From NCBI RefSeq assembly GCF_028649655.1, contig NZ_JAQSLN010000004.1:62001-126000 (forward strand): DNA of 64,000 nt, in the 5' to 3' direction. The notes under the pieces were generated by a model. It ran no database searches and was not told the origin of the DNA. It saw nothing but the letters and a program-made list of their open reading frames with translations. Every line of letters starts with the position of its first letter. The first letter of the stretch is position 1. Source of the stretch: Halobacteriovorax sp. GB3. Lineage in GTDB: Bacteria; Bdellovibrionota; Bacteriovoracia; Bacteriovoracales; Bacteriovoracaceae. Below, piece after piece: positions 24,309 through 35,466 of this stretch. A program made the position numbers and the translations under genes.

Positions 24309-25865
24309 TTAATCTACTTTTAGCTTCTCAACATATCCTTGAAGAAGATCGGCCATAGAACTAAGCTTCTTAGCTGCATCTTGTGCGCTAAGTGCGTCTT
24401 TACCAGTAACTGAAGCCGCTTCTGATACTTGAGAGATGTTTTCATTAATTTGTCGAACACCTTCTGCTGATTCTGTTACAATTCTTGTCACTTCGTTAGT
24501 CGTTGCTGCTTGCTCCTCTACAGAGGCTGCAATATTTCCTGCATATCCGTTTACTTTTTCAATAGCAGTTGAGATTTCACCGATTGCATTTACTGCATTC
24601 TTAGAGTCAGCCTGAATTGTTTCAATTTTCTTTGTAATATCAGATGTTGCTTTTGCTGTTTGCTTTGCAAGCTCTTTAACTTCATTGGCAACAACGGCAA
24701 ATCCCTTACCTGCTTCTCCAGCTCTTGCCGCTTCAATTGTTGCGTTTAGAGCAAGAAGGTTCGTTTGTTGAGCGATTGAAGAAATAACTTTGATAACATT
24801 TCCAATATCCATACTAGACTCACCTAGCTGGTTGATAATTGAATTTGTTTCTTTTGCCATTTTCATCGCATCATTAGACATATTAGAAGCTTCATTTGTA
24901 GTCTTCGTAATTTCCTTAATTGCAGCAACCATTTCTTCCATACTTGAAGCAACAGTTTGAACACCGGCATTAACCTCTTCTGAAGCTGAGCTTGCAGTAT
25001 TGGCCTGGGCAGAAGTTTCTTCAGCTCCTGCAGAAAGACTATTTGAAATTTTAAGAAGATTTTCAGATGCACCAGTAAGCTCGTCAGCACTTCCAGTAAG
25101 TTCTTCAACAAGCTTTAATTTGTCACTAATAACTTCCCAAGTAACCATAGGCCCTAGATAATTTCCATTATTATCAACAATTGGAGATACCAGAAGATTT
25201 AATTTCTCAGGTCCAACTCCAATGATCGCTCTATGTGGAAGGTTATTAGGATTGGCGATAATTTTTCTTTGAACCTCAGGATTTTTATGAAGTATATCAA
25301 TACTCTGACCCATTAAATTTTCTACAGAATCAGGTAGAAACTGCTCTAAAGTTTTAAGTGTTCTTCTTGAACTTTCATTCATATACATAAGAACACCTTC
25401 TGGTGTAGCCATCATTGTATTAATTGGTGATTTATCTACCATCTGGCTCATTCGCGCCATTGTCTCTTCACCCTCTAGTTTTTTAGTAACAACATCCCAT
25501 GTAACCATTGGCCCTAGATAATTTCCTTGATCATCTTTAATTGGTGATACAAGCAGATCTAATTTTTCCGGACCGACAGTAATAATAGCTTTATGTGGAA
25601 GGTTGTTTGGGTTTCCAATAATGCGTCTTTGAACTTCTGGATTTTGATGAAACCAATCAATACTCTTACCGATTAGGTTTTCAACCTTATCAGGAAGAAA
25701 TTGTTCGAGAGTTCTTAACGTCTTCTTTGAATTTTCATTCATGTAAGTAAGAATACCTTCGGGAGTAGCCATCATCGTATTGATTGGCGACAAATCTATC
25801 ATTGATCCAAAGTTAATCTTAGCTTCATTTCCACTGTCTACAGGGTTTAGGTTTACCTTGTTCAT
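24309..25865 (-). CDS. Soluble methyl-accepting chemotaxis protein with tandem PAS-like domains
   Basis: 518 aa with no membrane segment, so it is a cytoplasmic receptor. Two PAS-like repeats (about residues 26-135 and 146-250) share [12 protein letters not shown] and PMVTWE/D and are roughly three-quarters identical, which points to recent duplication. The signalling hairpin is complete, with the kinase-contact tip [18 protein letters not shown]. Being encoded between cheW and cheB it is presumably the dedicated receptor. No haem, flavin or metal ligand is recognisable in the PAS copies. Confidence 0.93.
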
Positions 25866-25882
25866 AGCTTCTCCAATTGGAA

Positions 25883-26341
25883 TTAGTTTTCGTTCAATAT
25901 CTTTTCAAAATCTAAAAGAATTAATAAATTTCTATCTTGTTTATAAACACCACTGATATATTTCTTTATCTTTGGATTTAAAGTCTCAGGAGTTGTTTCA
26001 AATGTACTCTTATCAATATCCATTACATCGAGGATCTCATCGACAATTAATGAATAAAGACTGTCCGCAGAACGAACAATAATATTCATATGTTCTTGTT
26101 CATTCTCTTTTTCAGGTAATCCAAAGAGTGTTCTAAGCGAAATTGATGTTACAATTTGACCTCTTAAATTGATTAGTCCTTTGACATAATCAGGTGCGAG
26201 AGGAACTGGTGTTAAATGTTGAGGCTTAATCACCTCTTGTACTTCGAGAACAGAAATTGCATAGTGACCGTTTCCAATTTTGAAACCACACAGTTGCTCT
26301 AGTTCTTGACCTACCACTTTCATTTCTTCTTCATTCATCAC
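25883..26341 (-). CDS. cheW: CheW coupling protein
   Basis: 152-aa CheW domain: [19 protein letters not shown], then [18 protein letters not shown] and the ILLDFEKIL end. It bridges receptor and CheA in the signalling array. It lies ten bases after cheA and 17 before the receptor gene. Confidence 0.94.
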
Positions 26342-26351
26342 TATCTCAATG

Positions 26352-29093
26352 TTATAAAGTCATTACGTTATTAATCGCTTCTTGAAATGCTTGTTGATTT
26401 AATTTTTCAATCATCATCTTAAATCCAGAACGTATTCCTTCATCAAGATCCCTACTTTTAATTGTTCCTGACATAGCAATCACTGGAATATCACCGAAGT
26501 CGGCAACATGCTCTTTTACAAATTTAACGAACTCCCACCCATTACAAACAGGCATTTCAAGGTCTGTCACAATGATATCAAATTGATGTCTTCGACTTTT
26601 TAGAATCTCAATTGCCTCCTGCCCATGATTCGCCTCAACAATTTCAAAACCTAAATCACTTAAATGTTCTTTTTGAATTTTCTTATAAAGAACAGAGTCT
26701 TCTACAAGAAGAATCTTTCCTCTATTTGCTTGAGCTGTCTTCTTTTTAAGATTCTGACCAATCGGTTGCATATCAATTATATTATGGCAATCAATGAGAG
26801 AAACTGTCGTATCATTCACATAGATTGTTCCAAGGATTCCGTCTCGATCTACAGTATCAGAGTCAATAATATCCTCATTTAAAGCAATATCTCTGATCTC
26901 ACTAACAATAAACCCAAAAAGAGAATTTCGAATTGATACAACTACACATGGAAGCATCTTTTGATCTTGATCCATGAGATTTGACGTACCGTTAAGCTTC
27001 ATTGTCTTTTCTAAATTGATAAGCGGCATTGGTTTATTACGATAACGAATGAGAGGTTGATCACCACTCCATTCGATGTCAGTCTTTTCAAATTCTTCTA
27101 ATCTATTAACAAGACAAAGTGGAATAGAATAATGACGTCCATCTCCTAAACGACAAAGAAGTACCTCATCAGTTTCATTTTTTAGCGTATTAACAGATTC
27201 CTGAACAACCATCTGGCTCGCTTTTTGACTATGCCCTTTATCTACATAATTTAAGAATCCAAGAGCATCAACAATCAGGGCTACTTTTCCATCACCCATA
27301 ATTGTTGTTCCCCCATAGATTGAAAGATCTTTCAATTTACGACTTAATGCTTTAACAACAATCTCTTCTGTATCGAGAACAGTATCCACAATAAGTCCAT
27401 AAACTTTACCTTCGGCATTGAGAATAACAATATTCAGAAAATCTTCTTCGTATTTCTCTTTTTCTTTTAATTTCTGTTTTTTAAGACCAATACTCTCACT
27501 CAGCCTAAACACAGGAATGAGATCGCCTCTTAATCGATAAAATTCAGATTCGTGTAATTTCTCAATTTGAGTGGAGCACTCATCACCCTCGAGCCTCACA
27601 AGCTCAACGAGATTGATCTGTGGTATTGCAAATGTTTCAACTCCACTTTGAACAACAAGAGCAGGAACAATTGCTAATGTAAGTGGGATCTTTAATTTAA
27701 ACGATGTACCCTCACCAACTTTAGAGTCGATATCAACAGAGCCACCAATTTTTTCAATATTACTTTTAACAACATCCATTCCAACACCTCTGCCAGAGAT
27801 GTTTGTAACTTGTTCTGCTGTTGAAAAACCGGGAAGAAAAATGAGATTTAAAATATCTTTCTTTCCCATTTGAGCTGCACGCTCGGGAGTAACAAGACCC
27901 TTATTAAGTGCTTTCTCAAGTATTTTATCTGGATCAATTCCATTTCCATCATCTCTGATTTCAATCGTAACCTGCCCACCTTCATGATAGGCTTTGATTA
28001 AAATAGATCCCTCTTCATTTTTACCTGCAATTTTTCTGGCATCAGGAGTCTCAACACCGTGGTCGACAGAGTTTCGAATGAGGTGGGTCATCGGGTCTCT
28101 AATTGCCTCTAATAGAGTTTTATCCAATTCAGTTTCTTTACCTGAAATAGTTAATTTAATTTTCTTTTTCTGAGACCTGGCGAGATCTCGTACAATTCTT
28201 TCAAACTTTCCAAGAACACTTCCAACTGGCTGCATTCTTGTTGTCATGATATCTGTCTGAAGCTCTGTTGTAATAACGTTTAATTCTTGAGCCAAACGAT
28301 TGAGTTCTGGAGCATCTTCATTATTTGCAAATTGAAGAATCTGGTTTCTATTTAAAACCAACTCTCCAACTACGTTCATAATTTTATCGAGTAATTTCAC
28401 ATTTACTCGAACAACACTATCTGAAATATTTCCTTGCCTAGCCGCCGCAGGTTGCTCAACAGTTTTTTCTTCAGTCATTTTCTTCTCATTCTTCATTTGA
28501 GGTTTAGAAATTATTGGTTCTTTTGGTTTCTCTACAGGACGAACTTCTTTAACAGGCTCTTCCTTTTTCTCAACGACTTTTTGAACTGGCTTCTCTTTTT
28601 TAGGAGTAGCAACGACAGGAGCTTCAACTTTTATTGGTAGTGGTGCTAGTTGTCTATCACCAATATAGTTTTCATATGGAAAGTAATCATCAATTCTCGG
28701 AAGTTCGACATCATGTGATCCGCTATATTTTTTTAGAATATCTTCATAACTTTTTTCAGGCTCATTTCCTGATTCTTCGATACTTTTAAGAATTTCAATA
28801 CAAGCATCAAATGTCTCTAAAAGTAAATCTACGTGATCACCAGTTAATTTAACTTCACCTTCTCGAATAAGGTCGAGGAGATTTTCTCCTTCGTGAGTAA
28901 TTTCTTGAAGTTTATGAAGACCCAAAAAGCTTGCAGAGCCTTTGAGTGTATGGACTTTTCTATAAATAGAATTTAGTAATTCAGAATCTGTAGGAGTTTT
29001 CTCATACTGAGTAAGCTCTTCACTTATCCCAGTTAAGTTCTCAAATGACTCAATTAAAAATTCTTGTACAATGACTGAATTTGGATCGACCAT
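26352..29093 (-). CDS. cheA: Hybrid chemotaxis kinase CheA: HPt-kinase-CheW-CheW-receiver
   Basis: 913 aa. The HPt domain carries H48 in RKVHTLKGSAS. A Pro/Lys/Glu-rich linker (about 165-215) replaces the usual P2 domain. Dimer helices, then an HATPase with HLIRNSVDHGVETP, DDGNGID and GRGVGMDVV, are intact. Two CheW-like domains follow, then a C-terminal receiver with LVEDS, phospho-Asp in VTDLEMPVCNG and a late Lys. The doubled CheW module matches the other kinase in this window, so the two are related. First gene of the chemosensory operon; AAAGG lies six bases before the ATG. Confidence 0.95.
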   Translation of the reverse strand: MVDPNSVIVQEFLIESFENLTGISEELTQYEKTPTDSELLNSIYRKVHTLKGSASFLGLHKLQEITHEGENLLDLIREGEVKLTGDHVDLLLETFDACIEILKSIEESGNEPEKSYEDILKKYSGSHDVELPRIDDYFPYENYIGDRQLAPLPIKVEAPVVATPKKEKPVQKVVEKKEEPVKEVRPVEKPKEPIISKPQMKNEKKMTEEKTVEQPAAARQGNISDSVVRVNVKLLDKIMNVVGELVLNRNQILQFANNEDAPELNRLAQELNVITTELQTDIMTTRMQPVGSVLGKFERIVRDLARSQKKKIKLTISGKETELDKTLLEAIRDPMTHLIRNSVDHGVETPDARKIAGKNEEGSILIKAYHEGGQVTIEIRDDGNGIDPDKILEKALNKGLVTPERAAQMGKKDILNLIFLPGFSTAEQVTNISGRGVGMDVVKSNIEKIGGSVDIDSKVGEGTSFKLKIPLTLAIVPALVVQSGVETFAIPQINLVELVRLEGDECSTQIEKLHESEFYRLRGDLIPVFRLSESIGLKKQKLKEKEKYEEDFLNIVILNAEGKVYGLIVDTVLDTEEIVVKALSRKLKDLSIYGGTTIMGDGKVALIVDALGFLNYVDKGHSQKASQMVVQESVNTLKNETDEVLLCRLGDGRHYSIPLCLVNRLEEFEKTDIEWSGDQPLIRYRNKPMPLINLEKTMKLNGTSNLMDQDQKMLPCVVVSIRNSLFGFIVSEIRDIALNEDIIDSDTVDRDGILGTIYVNDTTVSLIDCHNIIDMQPIGQNLKKKTAQANRGKILLVEDSVLYKKIQKEHLSDLGFEIVEANHGQEAIEILKSRRHQFDIIVTDLEMPVCNGWEFVKFVKEHVADFGDIPVIAMSGTIKSRDLDEGIRSGFKMMIEKLNQQAFQEAINNVMTL

Positions 29094-30315: not shown

Positions 30316-30948
30316 GTGGTAATTGATGATGGTGTAATAAAATATGACACAAGCGGCTTTCAAAAGAGCGAACCTCTCTCACTGAGGGAGTTTGAGTCAC
30401 TCGAAGCTTGGAGAAAAAAACTTTACCAACTTAATCTAATTGGCGAATACCCAATTGAAAAAGTCGGCTTTGGCAACCTCTCCTGCCTTCAAGATTATCA
30501 ATCTTTTATGATTAATGATAAACCTCAATTTGTTATCACAGGCACACAAACGGGAAAGCACAAGAACCTTAGTGGAGATCACTATACTCGAGTTCTCGAC
30601 TACGACCTCCACAAGATGACAATGAAAGCGATGGGCCCAGTTATGGCTTCAAGCGAAGCTCTTAGCCATGCTTCTATTTATCTATGCAGTAAAGAGATCA
30701 CATCGGTTTTTCATATTCATAGTCAAAGTATATGGAATGGAATGATAGAACAGAATATGGATTCAACGCCATCGGATGTCCCTTACGGAACTTACGAAAT
30801 GGCCCTTGCTGTTGAAGAATGTGTTGGAAATAAGAAATTTGGTACATTTGTCATGAAAGGCCACCAAGATGGTGTCATGATTTTCGGCCGATCAAATGAG
30901 GAATGTGGAGAATTAACATTAAAGTTAAATGAAAGATTTAATTCCTAG
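30316..30948 (+). CDS. Class II aldolase/adducin-family protein
   Basis: 210 aa starting at GTG with GGAG eight bases upstream. The zinc-site histidines of the FucA/AraD fold are visible as VFHIHSQSIW and, later, VMKGHQDGVMIFG. The N-terminal part has GNLSCL, equivalent to the substrate phosphate loop GNxS. Family members are sugar-phosphate aldolases, epimerases or dehydratases. The specific substrate is not clear, and the usual acidic catalytic residue is hard to assign. Its 3' end overlaps the convergent ATP-grasp gene by 24 bases. Confidence 0.75.
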   Translation: MVIDDGVIKYDTSGFQKSEPLSLREFESLEAWRKKLYQLNLIGEYPIEKVGFGNLSCLQDYQSFMINDKPQFVITGTQTGKHKNLSGDHYTRVLDYDLHKMTMKAMGPVMASSEALSHASIYLCSKEITSVFHIHSQSIWNGMIEQNMDSTPSDVPYGTYEMALAVEECVGNKKFGTFVMKGHQDGVMIFGRSNEECGELTLKLNERFNS

Positions 30949-31974
30949 GGTGTTAGCTAATTCATCTTCGCTATCAAATCCACCTCGAATATAAAAAGAT
31001 AAAAATCTTGTCTTTGGTGGTGATGTTATAAAGACATCATCTCCAAATCTTTCATTTATATCTCTAAGAATGTCACTATAGTGTTCTTCTTTAATTTTCT
31101 TTGGAACAATAAACCAACGACCGTGACCAAGAGACTCATCTAGATTCTTAATAACAAGCCCCATCGTCTTTCTATAGTTGATCTCGCACATTGGCATAAA
31201 TCTCATCGTTCCATCAAAGTCCTTAAAAAAGAAAGTATCAATTTGAATAGAATCAAAAACTCCAAGAAGCAATAATCTTTCTTTGTAAAAATCGATAAGA
31301 TCGTCTAGATTCAACCCTAGTGGTTTTAAAAGGTCTATCATTTTCTGTTTAGTTATTAATTCTCCACCAGAAAAACGACCATAGAGTCCATTAAAGTTTC
31401 GTACATAAAAAATATTTTCTCTAGACTCTATCGTTATACCAACATCAAAGATCCTCTCATAAAAAGGCTCTAGAAGGTATTCTTCACCCTTAAGATTCAA
31501 AATACTTTGCTTAACTTCACTACGAGCTAATACTCTATTTCCAGAACCTGAGACACCAAAGGCACTTTTTATAATGTATTTTTCATAGGGAGATGCATTT
31601 AGAAAGAGCTCTATTTCCTGCTCTTCAAAAGTGTTTAATAATTGTGGAAATTGAGCGAGGATCTCCTCAAAGATATGGCGAACTTTTGTCTTGGAATTTA
31701 GTAAAATTTTCAATTCTTTATTTTGAAGACTTCCCCACCAAGGGGAACAATCAGTTGAATTCGAATTAAGTCCAGGAATTACCATTCCAAATTTTTTAAG
31801 ATGATTAAGATAGTCTTGTGAGTACTCTCTATGATTTTTCATCATCGAGCTCTCATCTTTATTTACAAGAAAATAAATGTACTCAAACTCACTAATGATG
31901 CTTTGAGATCTTTTCTCATTAACAACACCGTTAAGAGCATCTTCATAGTCAAAATTAACAATATCAGTTTTCAC
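30925..31974 (-). CDS. ATP-grasp-like enzyme of unknown substrate
   Basis: 349 aa. Features of ATP-grasp ligases: the Lys and glycine-rich loop YIIKSAFGVSGSGNRVL (about 130-150), the acidic pair in EYLLEPFYERIFDVGI, and a late MCEINYRKTMG segment expected to bind Mg-ATP. ATP-grasp enzymes join a carboxylate to an amine or thiol through an acyl-phosphate. It overlaps the DUF455 gene by 11 bases, so the two are coupled. The substrate is unknown; a peptide or amino acid is a guess. Confidence 0.65.
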   Translation of the reverse strand: MKTDIVNFDYEDALNGVVNEKRSQSIISEFEYIYFLVNKDESSMMKNHREYSQDYLNHLKKFGMVIPGLNSNSTDCSPWWGSLQNKELKILLNSKTKVRHIFEEILAQFPQLLNTFEEQEIELFLNASPYEKYIIKSAFGVSGSGNRVLARSEVKQSILNLKGEEYLLEPFYERIFDVGITIESRENIFYVRNFNGLYGRFSGGELITKQKMIDLLKPLGLNLDDLIDFYKERLLLLGVFDSIQIDTFFFKDFDGTMRFMPMCEINYRKTMGLVIKNLDESLGHGRWFIVPKKIKEEHYSDILRDINERFGDDVFITSPPKTRFLSFYIRGGFDSEDELANTLGIKSFI

Positions 31975-32791
31975 TTTTCCAGCTCTTGCGATTTGTTAAC
32001 TTAAAATTGTCTCTATAATTCTCGATTGAATCGATATAGTGATCATCTAGACCAGCTCTTTGTCTTGCTTCGATATTTAAAACAATTCCCTTGGCCCTTG
32101 CAGGAGTTAGATTATCTGGCAGGTTTTCTAAATAATAATCCCAAAGACTTTTACTTTGTTTCCATGTATTGAGCCAAGTTCTTCCAAAAGCGACGTGAGA
32201 AATTTCATCTTCAAAAACAATATCCATTATTCTTGCAGATTTTTCATCTCCATATTCGGCAAAGATATGCCTATAAAAGTCAGCAAAATCTAAGTTCGCT
32301 TGCTCGAATGTTAAGGCCATGACACTAAAGAACTGCGAAGGATTATCTATCTTTGGCATTTGTCGCCAGAAGAAATCATTTAAAGGAACATCACCAAAAT
32401 TAAGACCAAAGTCTTTCATGCGATTTACATACAATTTAAAATGTTTTTGTTCATCAGCAATTGTTTTTAGAAGACCCTTTTTCAGTTTTAAGTCTTCTTC
32501 GCTTTCACCCGGAAATTTTAATATTGCTGCGGCCATCATTTCAATTGCCAGTAGTTCATGATTGGCAAAGAAATGCATTGCAAGAGCTCTCTTTTCAGGT
32601 AGATGAAGCTTTCCCTTTCCGGGAAATCTAACCTGTTCATCTGAAAAGGCAATTGATTCATCTCTTCCAGGGTACAATGGCATATCATAAGGTGTATTAT
32701 TATGAGTTATATCAATATTAACAGGAGCAAGCAGCTTATCTTCTAAGCTTGTTCCCATTAATAATGTTTCAGCATAATCATAAATATTCAT
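31964..32791 (-). CDS. DUF455 ferritin-like protein
   Basis: 275 aa helical protein of the ferritin-like DUF455 family. Probable di-metal ligands are in the repeated motifs ANHELLAIEMMAAA, IADEQKHFKLY, LTFEQANLDFADFY and FEDEISHVAFG, two E/ExxH-type sets as expected for a carboxylate-bridged di-iron site. The biochemical role of the family is not established to my knowledge. It lies two bases after the SUV3-like helicase and overlaps the ATP-grasp gene, suggesting an oxygenase-ligase pair. Confidence 0.82.
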   Translation of the reverse strand: MNIYDYAETLLMGTSLEDKLLAPVNIDITHNNTPYDMPLYPGRDESIAFSDEQVRFPGKGKLHLPEKRALAMHFFANHELLAIEMMAAAILKFPGESEEDLKLKKGLLKTIADEQKHFKLYVNRMKDFGLNFGDVPLNDFFWRQMPKIDNPSQFFSVMALTFEQANLDFADFYRHIFAEYGDEKSARIMDIVFEDEISHVAFGRTWLNTWKQSKSLWDYYLENLPDNLTPARAKGIVLNIEARQRAGLDDHYIDSIENYRDNFKLTNRKSWKSEN

Positions 32792-32793
32792 TT

Positions 32794-35466
32794 CTATTTA
32801 GTCGTTTTTCTCTTTCTTGAAGGACGTTTTCTTTTTCCACCAAAGCTTTTTTCGCCAGGTTTGCCATAGCGGCTACGCCCCTTAAATTTTCCAGAACGTC
32901 CACTGTTCTCACCTTTTGAATCATCGCCTCTTCGACCTTGATTATTTCCAGTACGTCGTCTTCCACTGAAACGTCTCTTTTTGAAACATTCTTCACAAAT
33001 AGGAAAGCGTGAGTCTTCAGGTAATTTACATCCACAACTTGAACACGTTGGAACAATTTTATCTGAAAGCAGAGTATTCAACTTATCAATTGCCTCTTGT
33101 TTATTATGAAGAAGGTCATTTTCATCAAACACAAAGTGCTTATTATTAAAGTGCCTTGAAAGCCACTGATAAAGCTCCACACATTTAATTGATGTTTCGA
33201 GATAATCGATATCATTCGATGTTGAATCAATGGCCTCGTTTGTAATTGGGCTTTCACTAACATAGTGAGTGAGAATCCAAACGAAATATTGAACGTGTTC
33301 CATTAACCCTTGATTAACTGGTGCACAAGAGAACCCAAAAATTTCAGCATCAGTTAGTTTAGCATCAGAATCTGCATCTTCTACCATTTCTGCAAGTTCA
33401 ATCATTTCATTTAATTCAACACAGAAGAATGGTTTTTGGAAAATCATTGTGTTGAAAAGTCTAAGAAACTCAGAAAGTTTTAGTGTCGGTAGAGCATTAT
33501 CTTCAAGTGCTCTGTTAACTTGATTAAAAATATCTAGATCAGGACCAACCATACATTGAGTACTTTGATCTAATGTTGCTCCTAATGCCTTATTAACGGT
33601 ATCAATTCCATCTTCTACTTTTGTCAGACATGAGACATAACCCGTAGGGAATCTTTTGTAACGTCCAGCACGACCTGCAATCTGTTTGATTTCACTATCA
33701 GAAATAACAAATTCTTGTGAGTTAATAAATTTTGAAAGAGTAGAAAAAACGATTCTCTTAATTGGTAAATTCATTCCCATAGAAATGGCATCTGTTGAAA
33801 CGATTACATCTGTTTCACCTTCATCGAATTTACGGGCCTGCTCTCTTCGAACTTCAGGACTGAGTCGTCCATATACAATTGATACTTTGAAACCAAGTCT
33901 CTCGAGGTCTCTCTTATAGCGAAGAGCATTTCGTCTAGAAAAGACAACAAGAGCATCGGACTTTTGCATTTCACTAAGAGCAATTGGCTTCTTTAAAACT
34001 TGAAGTTCAGTCATTCTTGTATAATTTTTAATTTCTAATTCATCACCACATAATTCAACGATCTTCTTAATAAGATCTAGTGCTGAAGGATCACCACAGA
34101 CATGAATTTCAGGGGAGAAGATATTAACAAGAGCTCTCGTCCATGCCCAACCACGTTGAGAGTCAGTGATCATTTGAATTTCATCAATAACACAGCAATC
34201 AAATTCTTCTTGAAACCTAGCCATCTCAATTGTTGAACTATAGTGAGTTGCACCCTCAGTTTCGATAACCTCTTCACCTGTTAAAAGAGATGTCTTAACT
34301 CCACTAGCATTAAGTGTATCGTAAAGTTCTCCAGCAAGAAGCCTTAAAGGAGCTAAGTAGCATCCTTTATCAGCACCTTTAAGCGCCTCAATGGCATGAT
34401 AGGTTTTACCAGAGTTTGTTGGTCCCATATGATAGACAATTTTTCGTTTTAATTGTCTCGCACTTGAGTGAACCCAGAACTCTCCAAGATATTCCTGAAG
34501 AATCTTTGAAGAGACATCCTTCTTTTTAAGAACAACTATCGACTTGATGAATTTTTTGAATTCACGCTTTAAGTACTTCTCACCTCTCCAAAAATTGTTA
34601 GCAAGAGTTTGGAAGTACTTTTCATATTCTTCTTCTGTTACGAGATCATTTGAAAATTCCATCGCTTCTAGTTGATTATCAAAATATAGAGCGAGGTTTC
34701 TTTTATGAAGAACTGAAAGTTTTGATGGGTAATGAAATTTCTCTTTGAGAATATTTTTCACTTGTACTTCTAATCGATTAAGGGAGCTTCTCTTCAGTTT
34801 AAAACGAACCTTGTAAAAAGTTTTATCAAGTTCCTTCTGCATTTTCTGATAGAGTTCACTAACAAATTCAATTCCGTTATCAATATTGTTTTCAATTGAA
34901 GAATATGATGTTTCGATGACTTCTTTACATGTATCAAAAACAAAATCCCTCAAGCGGGCCCTGAAGTCAGCAGAACATTTAACACATGGACACTTAAGTT
35001 CATTAGCTTTCAACTCAAGATTAAAGTTTTCGAGAATCAACTCTTGAGTATTTTCGTGATGCTTTAATTTATCTCGGCACCATCTTTCAATTCCAGTTAA
35101 ATGTATTTTCAGAATTTTTTCATTTAGCCCACCATCTTGACCAAAATAATAGAGTTCCTTTTCTGGAAATAAACAATCATCGAGAAAAATAGTTTCTAAT
35201 ATATAGTCTCTTTTAAAAAACTCATGTACCGAAAGATACTCCGTAGAAAATAAATTTGCTAAAGATGGAGCTTTTGAAAAAAGCTGAAATAAATGTGTCT
35301 GAAACTCTTCAATAAAGTCTAATACGATTCCTGCATCTTCTATTGTACGAACATATTCGTCGCTATCAGAGAAGTTGTTTACTTTTATTATCGTTTTGCG
35401 CTCAGTTTCTAATAATGATCGAATATCTTTGAAATCTGCTAGCACCGGAATTGTTTGGTTAGACAC
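32794..35466 (-). CDS. SUV3/SUPV3L1-type ATP-dependent RNA helicase
   Basis: 890 aa. Helicase motifs typical of SUV3: Walker A HMGPTNSGKTYHA (about 345), Walker B VIDEIQM (about 428), and motif VI QIAGRAGRYKRFP (about 595). The N-terminal 340 residues include CPCVKCSAD, a possible extra metal site. The C-terminus has a zinc-ribbon-like CSSCGCKLP...CEEC (about 812-832) followed by an Arg/Gly/Lys-rich tail that should bind RNA. In mitochondria SUV3 works with PNPase in RNA decay. It starts at GTG with AAGG upstream, first of a unit with DUF455 and ATP-grasp. Confidence 0.88.
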   Translation of the reverse strand: MSNQTIPVLADFKDIRSLLETERKTIIKVNNFSDSDEYVRTIEDAGIVLDFIEEFQTHLFQLFSKAPSLANLFSTEYLSVHEFFKRDYILETIFLDDCLFPEKELYYFGQDGGLNEKILKIHLTGIERWCRDKLKHHENTQELILENFNLELKANELKCPCVKCSADFRARLRDFVFDTCKEVIETSYSSIENNIDNGIEFVSELYQKMQKELDKTFYKVRFKLKRSSLNRLEVQVKNILKEKFHYPSKLSVLHKRNLALYFDNQLEAMEFSNDLVTEEEYEKYFQTLANNFWRGEKYLKREFKKFIKSIVVLKKKDVSSKILQEYLGEFWVHSSARQLKRKIVYHMGPTNSGKTYHAIEALKGADKGCYLAPLRLLAGELYDTLNASGVKTSLLTGEEVIETEGATHYSSTIEMARFQEEFDCCVIDEIQMITDSQRGWAWTRALVNIFSPEIHVCGDPSALDLIKKIVELCGDELEIKNYTRMTELQVLKKPIALSEMQKSDALVVFSRRNALRYKRDLERLGFKVSIVYGRLSPEVRREQARKFDEGETDVIVSTDAISMGMNLPIKRIVFSTLSKFINSQEFVISDSEIKQIAGRAGRYKRFPTGYVSCLTKVEDGIDTVNKALGATLDQSTQCMVGPDLDIFNQVNRALEDNALPTLKLSEFLRLFNTMIFQKPFFCVELNEMIELAEMVEDADSDAKLTDAEIFGFSCAPVNQGLMEHVQYFVWILTHYVSESPITNEAIDSTSNDIDYLETSIKCVELYQWLSRHFNNKHFVFDENDLLHNKQEAIDKLNTLLSDKIVPTCSSCGCKLPEDSRFPICEECFKKRRFSGRRRTGNNQGRRGDDSKGENSGRSGKFKGRSRYGKPGEKSFGGKRKRPSRKRKTTK

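Follow-up and report, generated by a model that had tools for sequence, protein, structure and literature searches.

The window analyzed here, a 64,000-nucleotide stretch of DNA from Halobacteriovorax sp. GB3, carries on its minus strand two overlapping genes, one coding for a protein of the DUF455 family (PF04305) and the other for an ATP-grasp ligase. The features of the locus are as follows.

31964..32791, minus strand: gene of the DUF455 ferritin-like protein, ATG start, 275 aa (PF04305, AlphaFold2 model).
30925..31974, minus strand: gene of the ATP-grasp ligase, GTG start, 349 aa (ORF, family alignment A1, profile and fold of homologues).
31964..31974, minus strand: overlap of 11 bases, the ATP-grasp start lying within the DUF455 end.
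32540..32542, minus strand: codon of E84, candidate iron ligand in helix 1, invariant in alignments A2 and A5; E79 is likewise invariant.
32441..32452, minus strand: codons of E114-x-x-H117, candidate iron ligands in helix 2, invariant in A2 and A5.
32303..32305, minus strand: codon of E163, candidate iron ligand in helix 3, invariant in A2 and A5.
32195..32206, minus strand: codons of E196-x-x-H199, candidate iron ligands in helix 4, invariant in A2 and A5.
31237..31239, minus strand: codon of D246 in the ATP-grasp protein, candidate Mg ligand, invariant in A1.
31171..31185, minus strand: codons of E264-x-N266-x-R268, the ATP-grasp E-x-N motif, candidate Mg ligands, invariant in A1.
32794..35466, minus strand: neighboring gene of a SUV3-like RNA helicase (PF22527, E 7e-63).
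30316..30948, plus strand: class II aldolase-like gene (PF00596), a convergent neighbor that overlaps the ATP-grasp gene by 24 bases.

These positions agree with the sequence-only reading, which had described the 11-base overlap and had placed a SUV3-like helicase two bases upstream of DUF455; the helicase frame indeed ends at 32794. The overlap recurs in relatives (median -12 bp), as does the gene order across the window's family, and elsewhere, in other families and phyla, a single protein contains both domains, so the arrangement is not a product of chance.

Co-occurrence of the two genes was examined in 291 genomes sampled across the phylum, 97 of them from the window's family, and counted by hand from tables. 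Within the family, 79 genomes possess both genes, 17 possess neither the ATP-grasp gene nor a strong DUF455 match, one has the ATP-grasp gene alone, and none has DUF455 alone (Fisher p = 5e-18, a value that ignores kinship). In the sampled family genomes, a strong DUF455 of the paired type is always accompanied by the ATP-grasp gene (79/79); two of the 17 genomes match, less strongly, a different DUF455 subtype that appears to be shorter. The joint absences are scattered across about 15 genera. Among the 75 family genomes with listed coordinates, DUF455 lies immediately upstream of the ATP-grasp gene on the same strand in 72, and the two remain side by side in relatives despite a drift of the ATP-grasp sequence to about 25% identity. 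The genome-wide co-occurrence analysis that had been proposed as a check therefore gave a positive answer, and the claim that the two genes belong together is upheld by co-occurrence, adjacency, and the fusions found in other phyla. The sole family genome with the ATP-grasp gene but without DUF455 (G036) carries the same ATP-grasp subfamily in an 879-aa fusion with a CmcH/NodU-type carbamoyltransferase (PF02543/PF16861; L105:9335-11974).

Outside the window's family, the ATP-grasp profile led to ORFs of 594-802 aa that have DUF455 as their N-terminal half. Such fused ORFs exist in at least seven other families of the phylum (f3, f8, f12, f14, f20, f22, and f23), and the one at L100 is represented by two overlapping frames in its assembly. 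We gathered 85 fused proteins from Bdellovibrionota, Verrucomicrobiota, Latescibacterota, genomes labeled Gemmatimonadota, and SAR324. A genome scan with the fusion alignment yielded 80 essentially full-length loci from Verrucomicrobiota, Latescibacterota, Gemmatimonadota-labeled genomes, SAR324, Oligoflexia, and others, among which labels like Akkermansia or Klebsiella in the titles of MAGs are clearly unreliable. The fusion, typically of about 700 residues, thus occurs in several bacterial phyla, and its distribution is widespread but patchy: among the phylum genomes sampled around G295, one of them the genome of a Latescibacterota locus, each of the 21 strong DUF455 matches falls in a frame of 616-776 aa, the SAR324 sample has DUF455 in four long and seven stand-alone frames, and the Verrucomicrobiota sample has the fusion in 5 of 195 genomes. 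When the fused row was taken out of the ATP-grasp alignment, the resulting profile still detected all 85 fusions (E <= 1e-5) and none of 85 shuffled sequences, and a profile-profile comparison linked the split ATP-grasp proteins to the fusions with 99.8% probability. In the DUF455 tree, split and fused domains lie together on one side of the branch that separates them from stand-alone DUF455 (support 100/99), and the split DUF455 proteins of the window's family form one group (98/98). Most simply, the pair would have derived from one splitting of the fusion in the window's family, a reading of the tree grouping made with the root not fixed. Because the domains are joined into a single protein elsewhere, DUF455 and the ATP-grasp ligase almost certainly work together on one product.

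The DUF455 protein matches PF04305 with 168.2 bits (E 3.2e-49) against a gathering cut-off of 34.3, and its AlphaFold2 model, built with 27 fusion domains (pLDDT 92.7), is a ferritin-like four-helix bundle with helices at 65-92, 98-127, 151-179, and 183-210, in line with the original assignment. A di-iron site had also been expected, and at the sequence level the protein keeps a complete set of candidate ligands in the order E, ExxH, E, ExxH, with one element per helix: E84 (or E79), E114/H117, E163, and E196/H199. Ferritin-like chains resemble the model at Z about 14. Aldehyde-deformylating oxygenase (ADO) reaches Z 14.3 over 186 residues, the most among the matches listed, and bacterioferritin reaches Z 14.3 over 148 residues; bacterioferritins and Dps in general score like ADO over about 145 residues. 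A modeled likeness of Z about 14 between helical bundles is one of arrangement, not kinship, being near the values of unrelated bundles. MiaE-like tRNA hydroxylases, which may be closer folds, are absent among the fold matches listed. Although cyanobacterial ADO has the same ferritin-like four-helix di-iron fold, it works with acyl-ACP reductase, whereas DUF455 is coupled to a ligase. The window protein stays below the cut-offs of the ADO models PF11266 (16 of 28 bits) and TIGR04059 (14.7 of 222.65).

Stand-alone DUF455 proteins belong to the same Pfam family and have the same iron-ligand positions as the paired type, but they constitute the separate clade mentioned above, have no ATP-grasp partner, and diverge from the paired type around helix 1 (LHDLASIELQAME versus HFFANHELLAIE); the paired type also carries a C-terminal extension. 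In Sinorhizobium meliloti and Sphingomonas parapaucimobilis, a stand-alone DUF455 gene directly follows a peroxiredoxin gene (L212:4300-5612 and L213:4342-5618), which suggests a peroxide link. A third, short DUF455-like subtype of 177-181 aa without N- and C-terminal extensions was also encountered (L232:4386-4931 and L233:4702-5235), and the source genome of the latter also has the paired type.

Recognition of the ATP-grasp half from the single sequence is weak. ATPgrasp_ST (PF14397) gives 17.1 bits, below its cut-off of 31.4, and no Pfam or NCBIfam family exceeds its cut-off. PF18604 (PGM1-type PreATP-grasp) is not among the matches reported for the window protein and gives 15.8 bits, against a cut-off of 27.5, for one fusion. 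Single-sequence searches of the PDB returned no close relatives, and profile matches there are weak (PurK, E 3e-4; SAOUHSC_02373, E 0.02). The assignment made earlier nevertheless becomes firm through homologues, that is, through invariant residues, the profile link to the fusions, and the fold of a fused homologue. Across 24 relatives (alignment A1), D246, E264, N266, and R268 do not vary, and E599/N601/R603, the fusion counterparts of the last three, are invariant in 30 fusions. Since the candidate di-iron ligands and the ATP-grasp K, D, E, N, and R positions are invariant in all 30 aligned fusions, both halves look catalytically intact.

For the fold, a fusion of 704 aa (L145) was modeled with 30 sequences (pLDDT 92.7, pTM 0.89). 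Its residues 269-700 are most similar to PGM1 (3WVR; Z 28.8, rmsd 3.1, 373 aligned), followed by a Streptomyces ATP-grasp peptide ligase (8YND, Z 26.1), BesA (25.6), and SAOUHSC_02373 (24.9); in all, hundreds of chains with the ATP-grasp fold exceed Z 8. PurK-type ligases, which also have the ATP-grasp fold, score about 20, clearly under the peptide and amino-acid ligases. The fold thus comes from the fused homologue, to which the window protein is, like to the other fusions, only about 20% identical, and the E-x-N motif comes from the window protein itself; together they place it in the ATP-grasp superfamily. The suggestion that it is a ligase is backed by the resemblance of the fused homologue to amide-forming ligases. 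PGM1 (3WVQ, 3WVR), BesA (8YI6), and SAOUHSC_02373 (7R8P/Q), the latter two of which are dipeptide-forming ligases, resemble the fusion in overall ATP-grasp architecture, down to the pre-ATP-grasp domain (338-377 residues at Z 24-29), and share its E-x-N motif. They are, however, 12-16% identical, and the coupling or fusion to DUF455 and the lack of a surrounding biosynthetic cluster set the pair apart.

More remote relatives of the ATP-grasp half stand alone. Single-domain relatives exist in Bacteroidota, with no constant context in the two examined. Distant solo relatives (E 1e-12 to 1e-15; L211 by tblastn, E 6e-8) adjoin acyl-carrier-protein genes (L125 and L211) or a PLP decarboxylase and a KAS III gene (L103), neighbors that fit activation of an amino-acid or related carboxylate. 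At L125:6527-12080 (G133), a second, distant ATP-grasp copy is accompanied by genes for an acyl carrier protein, a fatty-acid-desaturase-like protein, and a glycosyltransferase, a group that, judged from its genes, looks like a small biosynthetic cluster. At L103:4-5563 (G109), a PreATP-grasp/ATP-grasp gene adjoins KAS III-like genes and an ornithine/DAP-type PLP decarboxylase, possibly an uncharacterized biosynthetic cluster, and a probable one at L211:7173-14353 on a Streptomyces plasmid comprises radical SAM, acyl carrier protein, ATP-grasp relative, Gfo/Idh oxidoreductase, and condensation-domain protein genes.

The genes around the pair bear on whether its substrate is an RNA, as would be the case if the pair acted with the SUV3-like helicase. 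The helicase gene lies directly upstream in most genomes of the window's family and was found in 17 of the larger family loci. Conservation in the family extends, however, to a long block of surrounding genes, among them those for the helicase, the aldolase, and a nitronate monooxygenase-like protein, so the helicase adjacency is not specific. SUV3 is kept in 10 of 10 tested family genomes without the pair, and in two of these pairless genomes (G022 and G017) it is directly convergent with the aldolase gene at the place where the pair would be expected; the pair therefore comes and goes as a unit. Moreover, none of the 85 fusion loci has a SUV3 gene nearby. We consider modification of RNA with the helicase highly improbable and discarded the link as background synteny, and both the SUV3-like helicase and the class II aldolase-like gene are judged to be outside the system. 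Thus, of the earlier proposal that the pair tailors a small molecule, a peptide, or RNA, the first two options stand and the last falls. A role in anti-phage defense was likewise set aside, as PADLOC gave no relevant match. Elsewhere in the window, ORF translations indicate a chemotaxis group at 24309-29093 (a receptor with two similar N-terminal repeats, a CheW-like protein, and a CheA hybrid with a C-terminal receiver-like domain).

Two points are established: the genes function as a unit, and this unit has two conserved active sites, one of ferritin-like and one of ATP-grasp type. The explanation we prefer, with a probability of roughly 0.55, is that it represents a split bifunctional enzyme in which di-iron oxidation by DUF455 and ligation by the ATP-grasp half serve one pathway. 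To judge from sequence and model, the DUF455 half would be a di-iron protein that most likely activates O2 and oxidizes a small molecule derived from an amino acid, or some other carboxylic compound. Like ligases of the PGM1/BesA type, the ATP-grasp half would turn a carboxylate into an acyl phosphate and couple this with an amine or, possibly, with the thiol of a carrier; both reactions would belong to one pathway and probably be sequential. An oxidation by O2 that is linked, within a single pathway, to the making of an amide (or thioester) is likely; we infer the activation of O2, the amide chemistry, and the order of the steps. A similar logic is found in E-64 biosynthesis, where an oxygenase produces an acid that an ATP-grasp enzyme condenses with an amino acid (PMC12568646). 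The E-64 system is not homologous as a system, however: it pairs an Fe/2-oxoglutarate oxygenase with a fungal ATP-grasp enzyme of glutathione-synthetase-like architecture, and its genes are clustered and unfused. Across lineages, the fusions have no recurrent neighbor; a gene that looks enolase-superfamily-like occurs near 12 fusion loci, mostly Latescibacterota-labeled, and no neighbor is shared beyond single lineages. This lack of a constant third gene suggests that the substrates are drawn from general metabolism. A tentative extension, which we hold with less confidence, is that a widespread and hitherto undescribed bifunctional family of di-iron oxidase and amide ligase, secondarily split in one Bdellovibrionota family, converts common metabolites into a conserved small molecule or cofactor and needs no gene cluster to do so.

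Other explanations differ in the target or in the chemistry of DUF455. The pair might modify a protein or ribosomal peptide, the ATP-grasp enzyme ligating an amino acid or introducing a cross-link and DUF455 oxidizing the same site. PGM1, the nearest fold, couples a non-proteinogenic amino acid to the core of ribosomal peptides (PMC8939145), and the absence of constant metabolic partners of the fusion is what would be expected if the target were a housekeeping protein. The operon, however, has no room for a precursor gene, given the overlaps, the helicase two bases upstream, and the aldolase gene overlapping downstream: none lies between the genes or directly up- or downstream, although a location elsewhere is possible, and no constant small gene was found near the fusions among ORFs of at least 70 aa. 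We regard a peptide or protein target as rather unlikely. Carrier proteins can be loaded with amino acids, as is described for BtrJ in butirosin biosynthesis, and the ATP-grasp enzyme could act in this way with DUF455 oxidizing the carrier-bound residue. The carrier-protein and PLP decarboxylase genes beside the solo relatives favor such a scheme, but those relatives are the distant ones, and no carrier-protein gene lies beside the pair or the fusions, which makes it improbable. Some ferritin-like proteins store iron or serve as peroxidases, and DUF455 might protect or regulate the ligase as an iron-binding, peroxidase-like, or structural domain, leaving the ATP-grasp half as the sole site of chemistry. 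The equal nearness of its fold to bacterioferritin and Dps, together with the peroxiredoxin gene preceding stand-alone DUF455 in the two alphaproteobacteria, speaks for this. Against it are the C-terminal extension of the paired type, the longest alignments, among the matches listed, being to ADO, and the invariance of the candidate ligands across very divergent members; we find such a role similarly improbable.

In the openly searchable literature, we found neither a function for PF04305/COG2833 nor a report of a ferritin-like/ATP-grasp fusion, with a mention in the amidoligase survey of Iyer et al. 2009 being possible; both superfamilies are known, and it is their coupled or fused combination that has no description there. 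Because the fusion supplies the partner chemistry, it provides a concrete hypothesis for DUF455, namely oxidation followed by ligation or the reverse. The orphan family DUF455 thereby gains a testable function, and the single-chain homologues from several phyla can be directly expressed and assayed. If the split bifunctional enzyme is real, it would represent a new enzyme family and point to a metabolite outside the classical biosynthetic gene clusters, one that genome-mining tools would miss.
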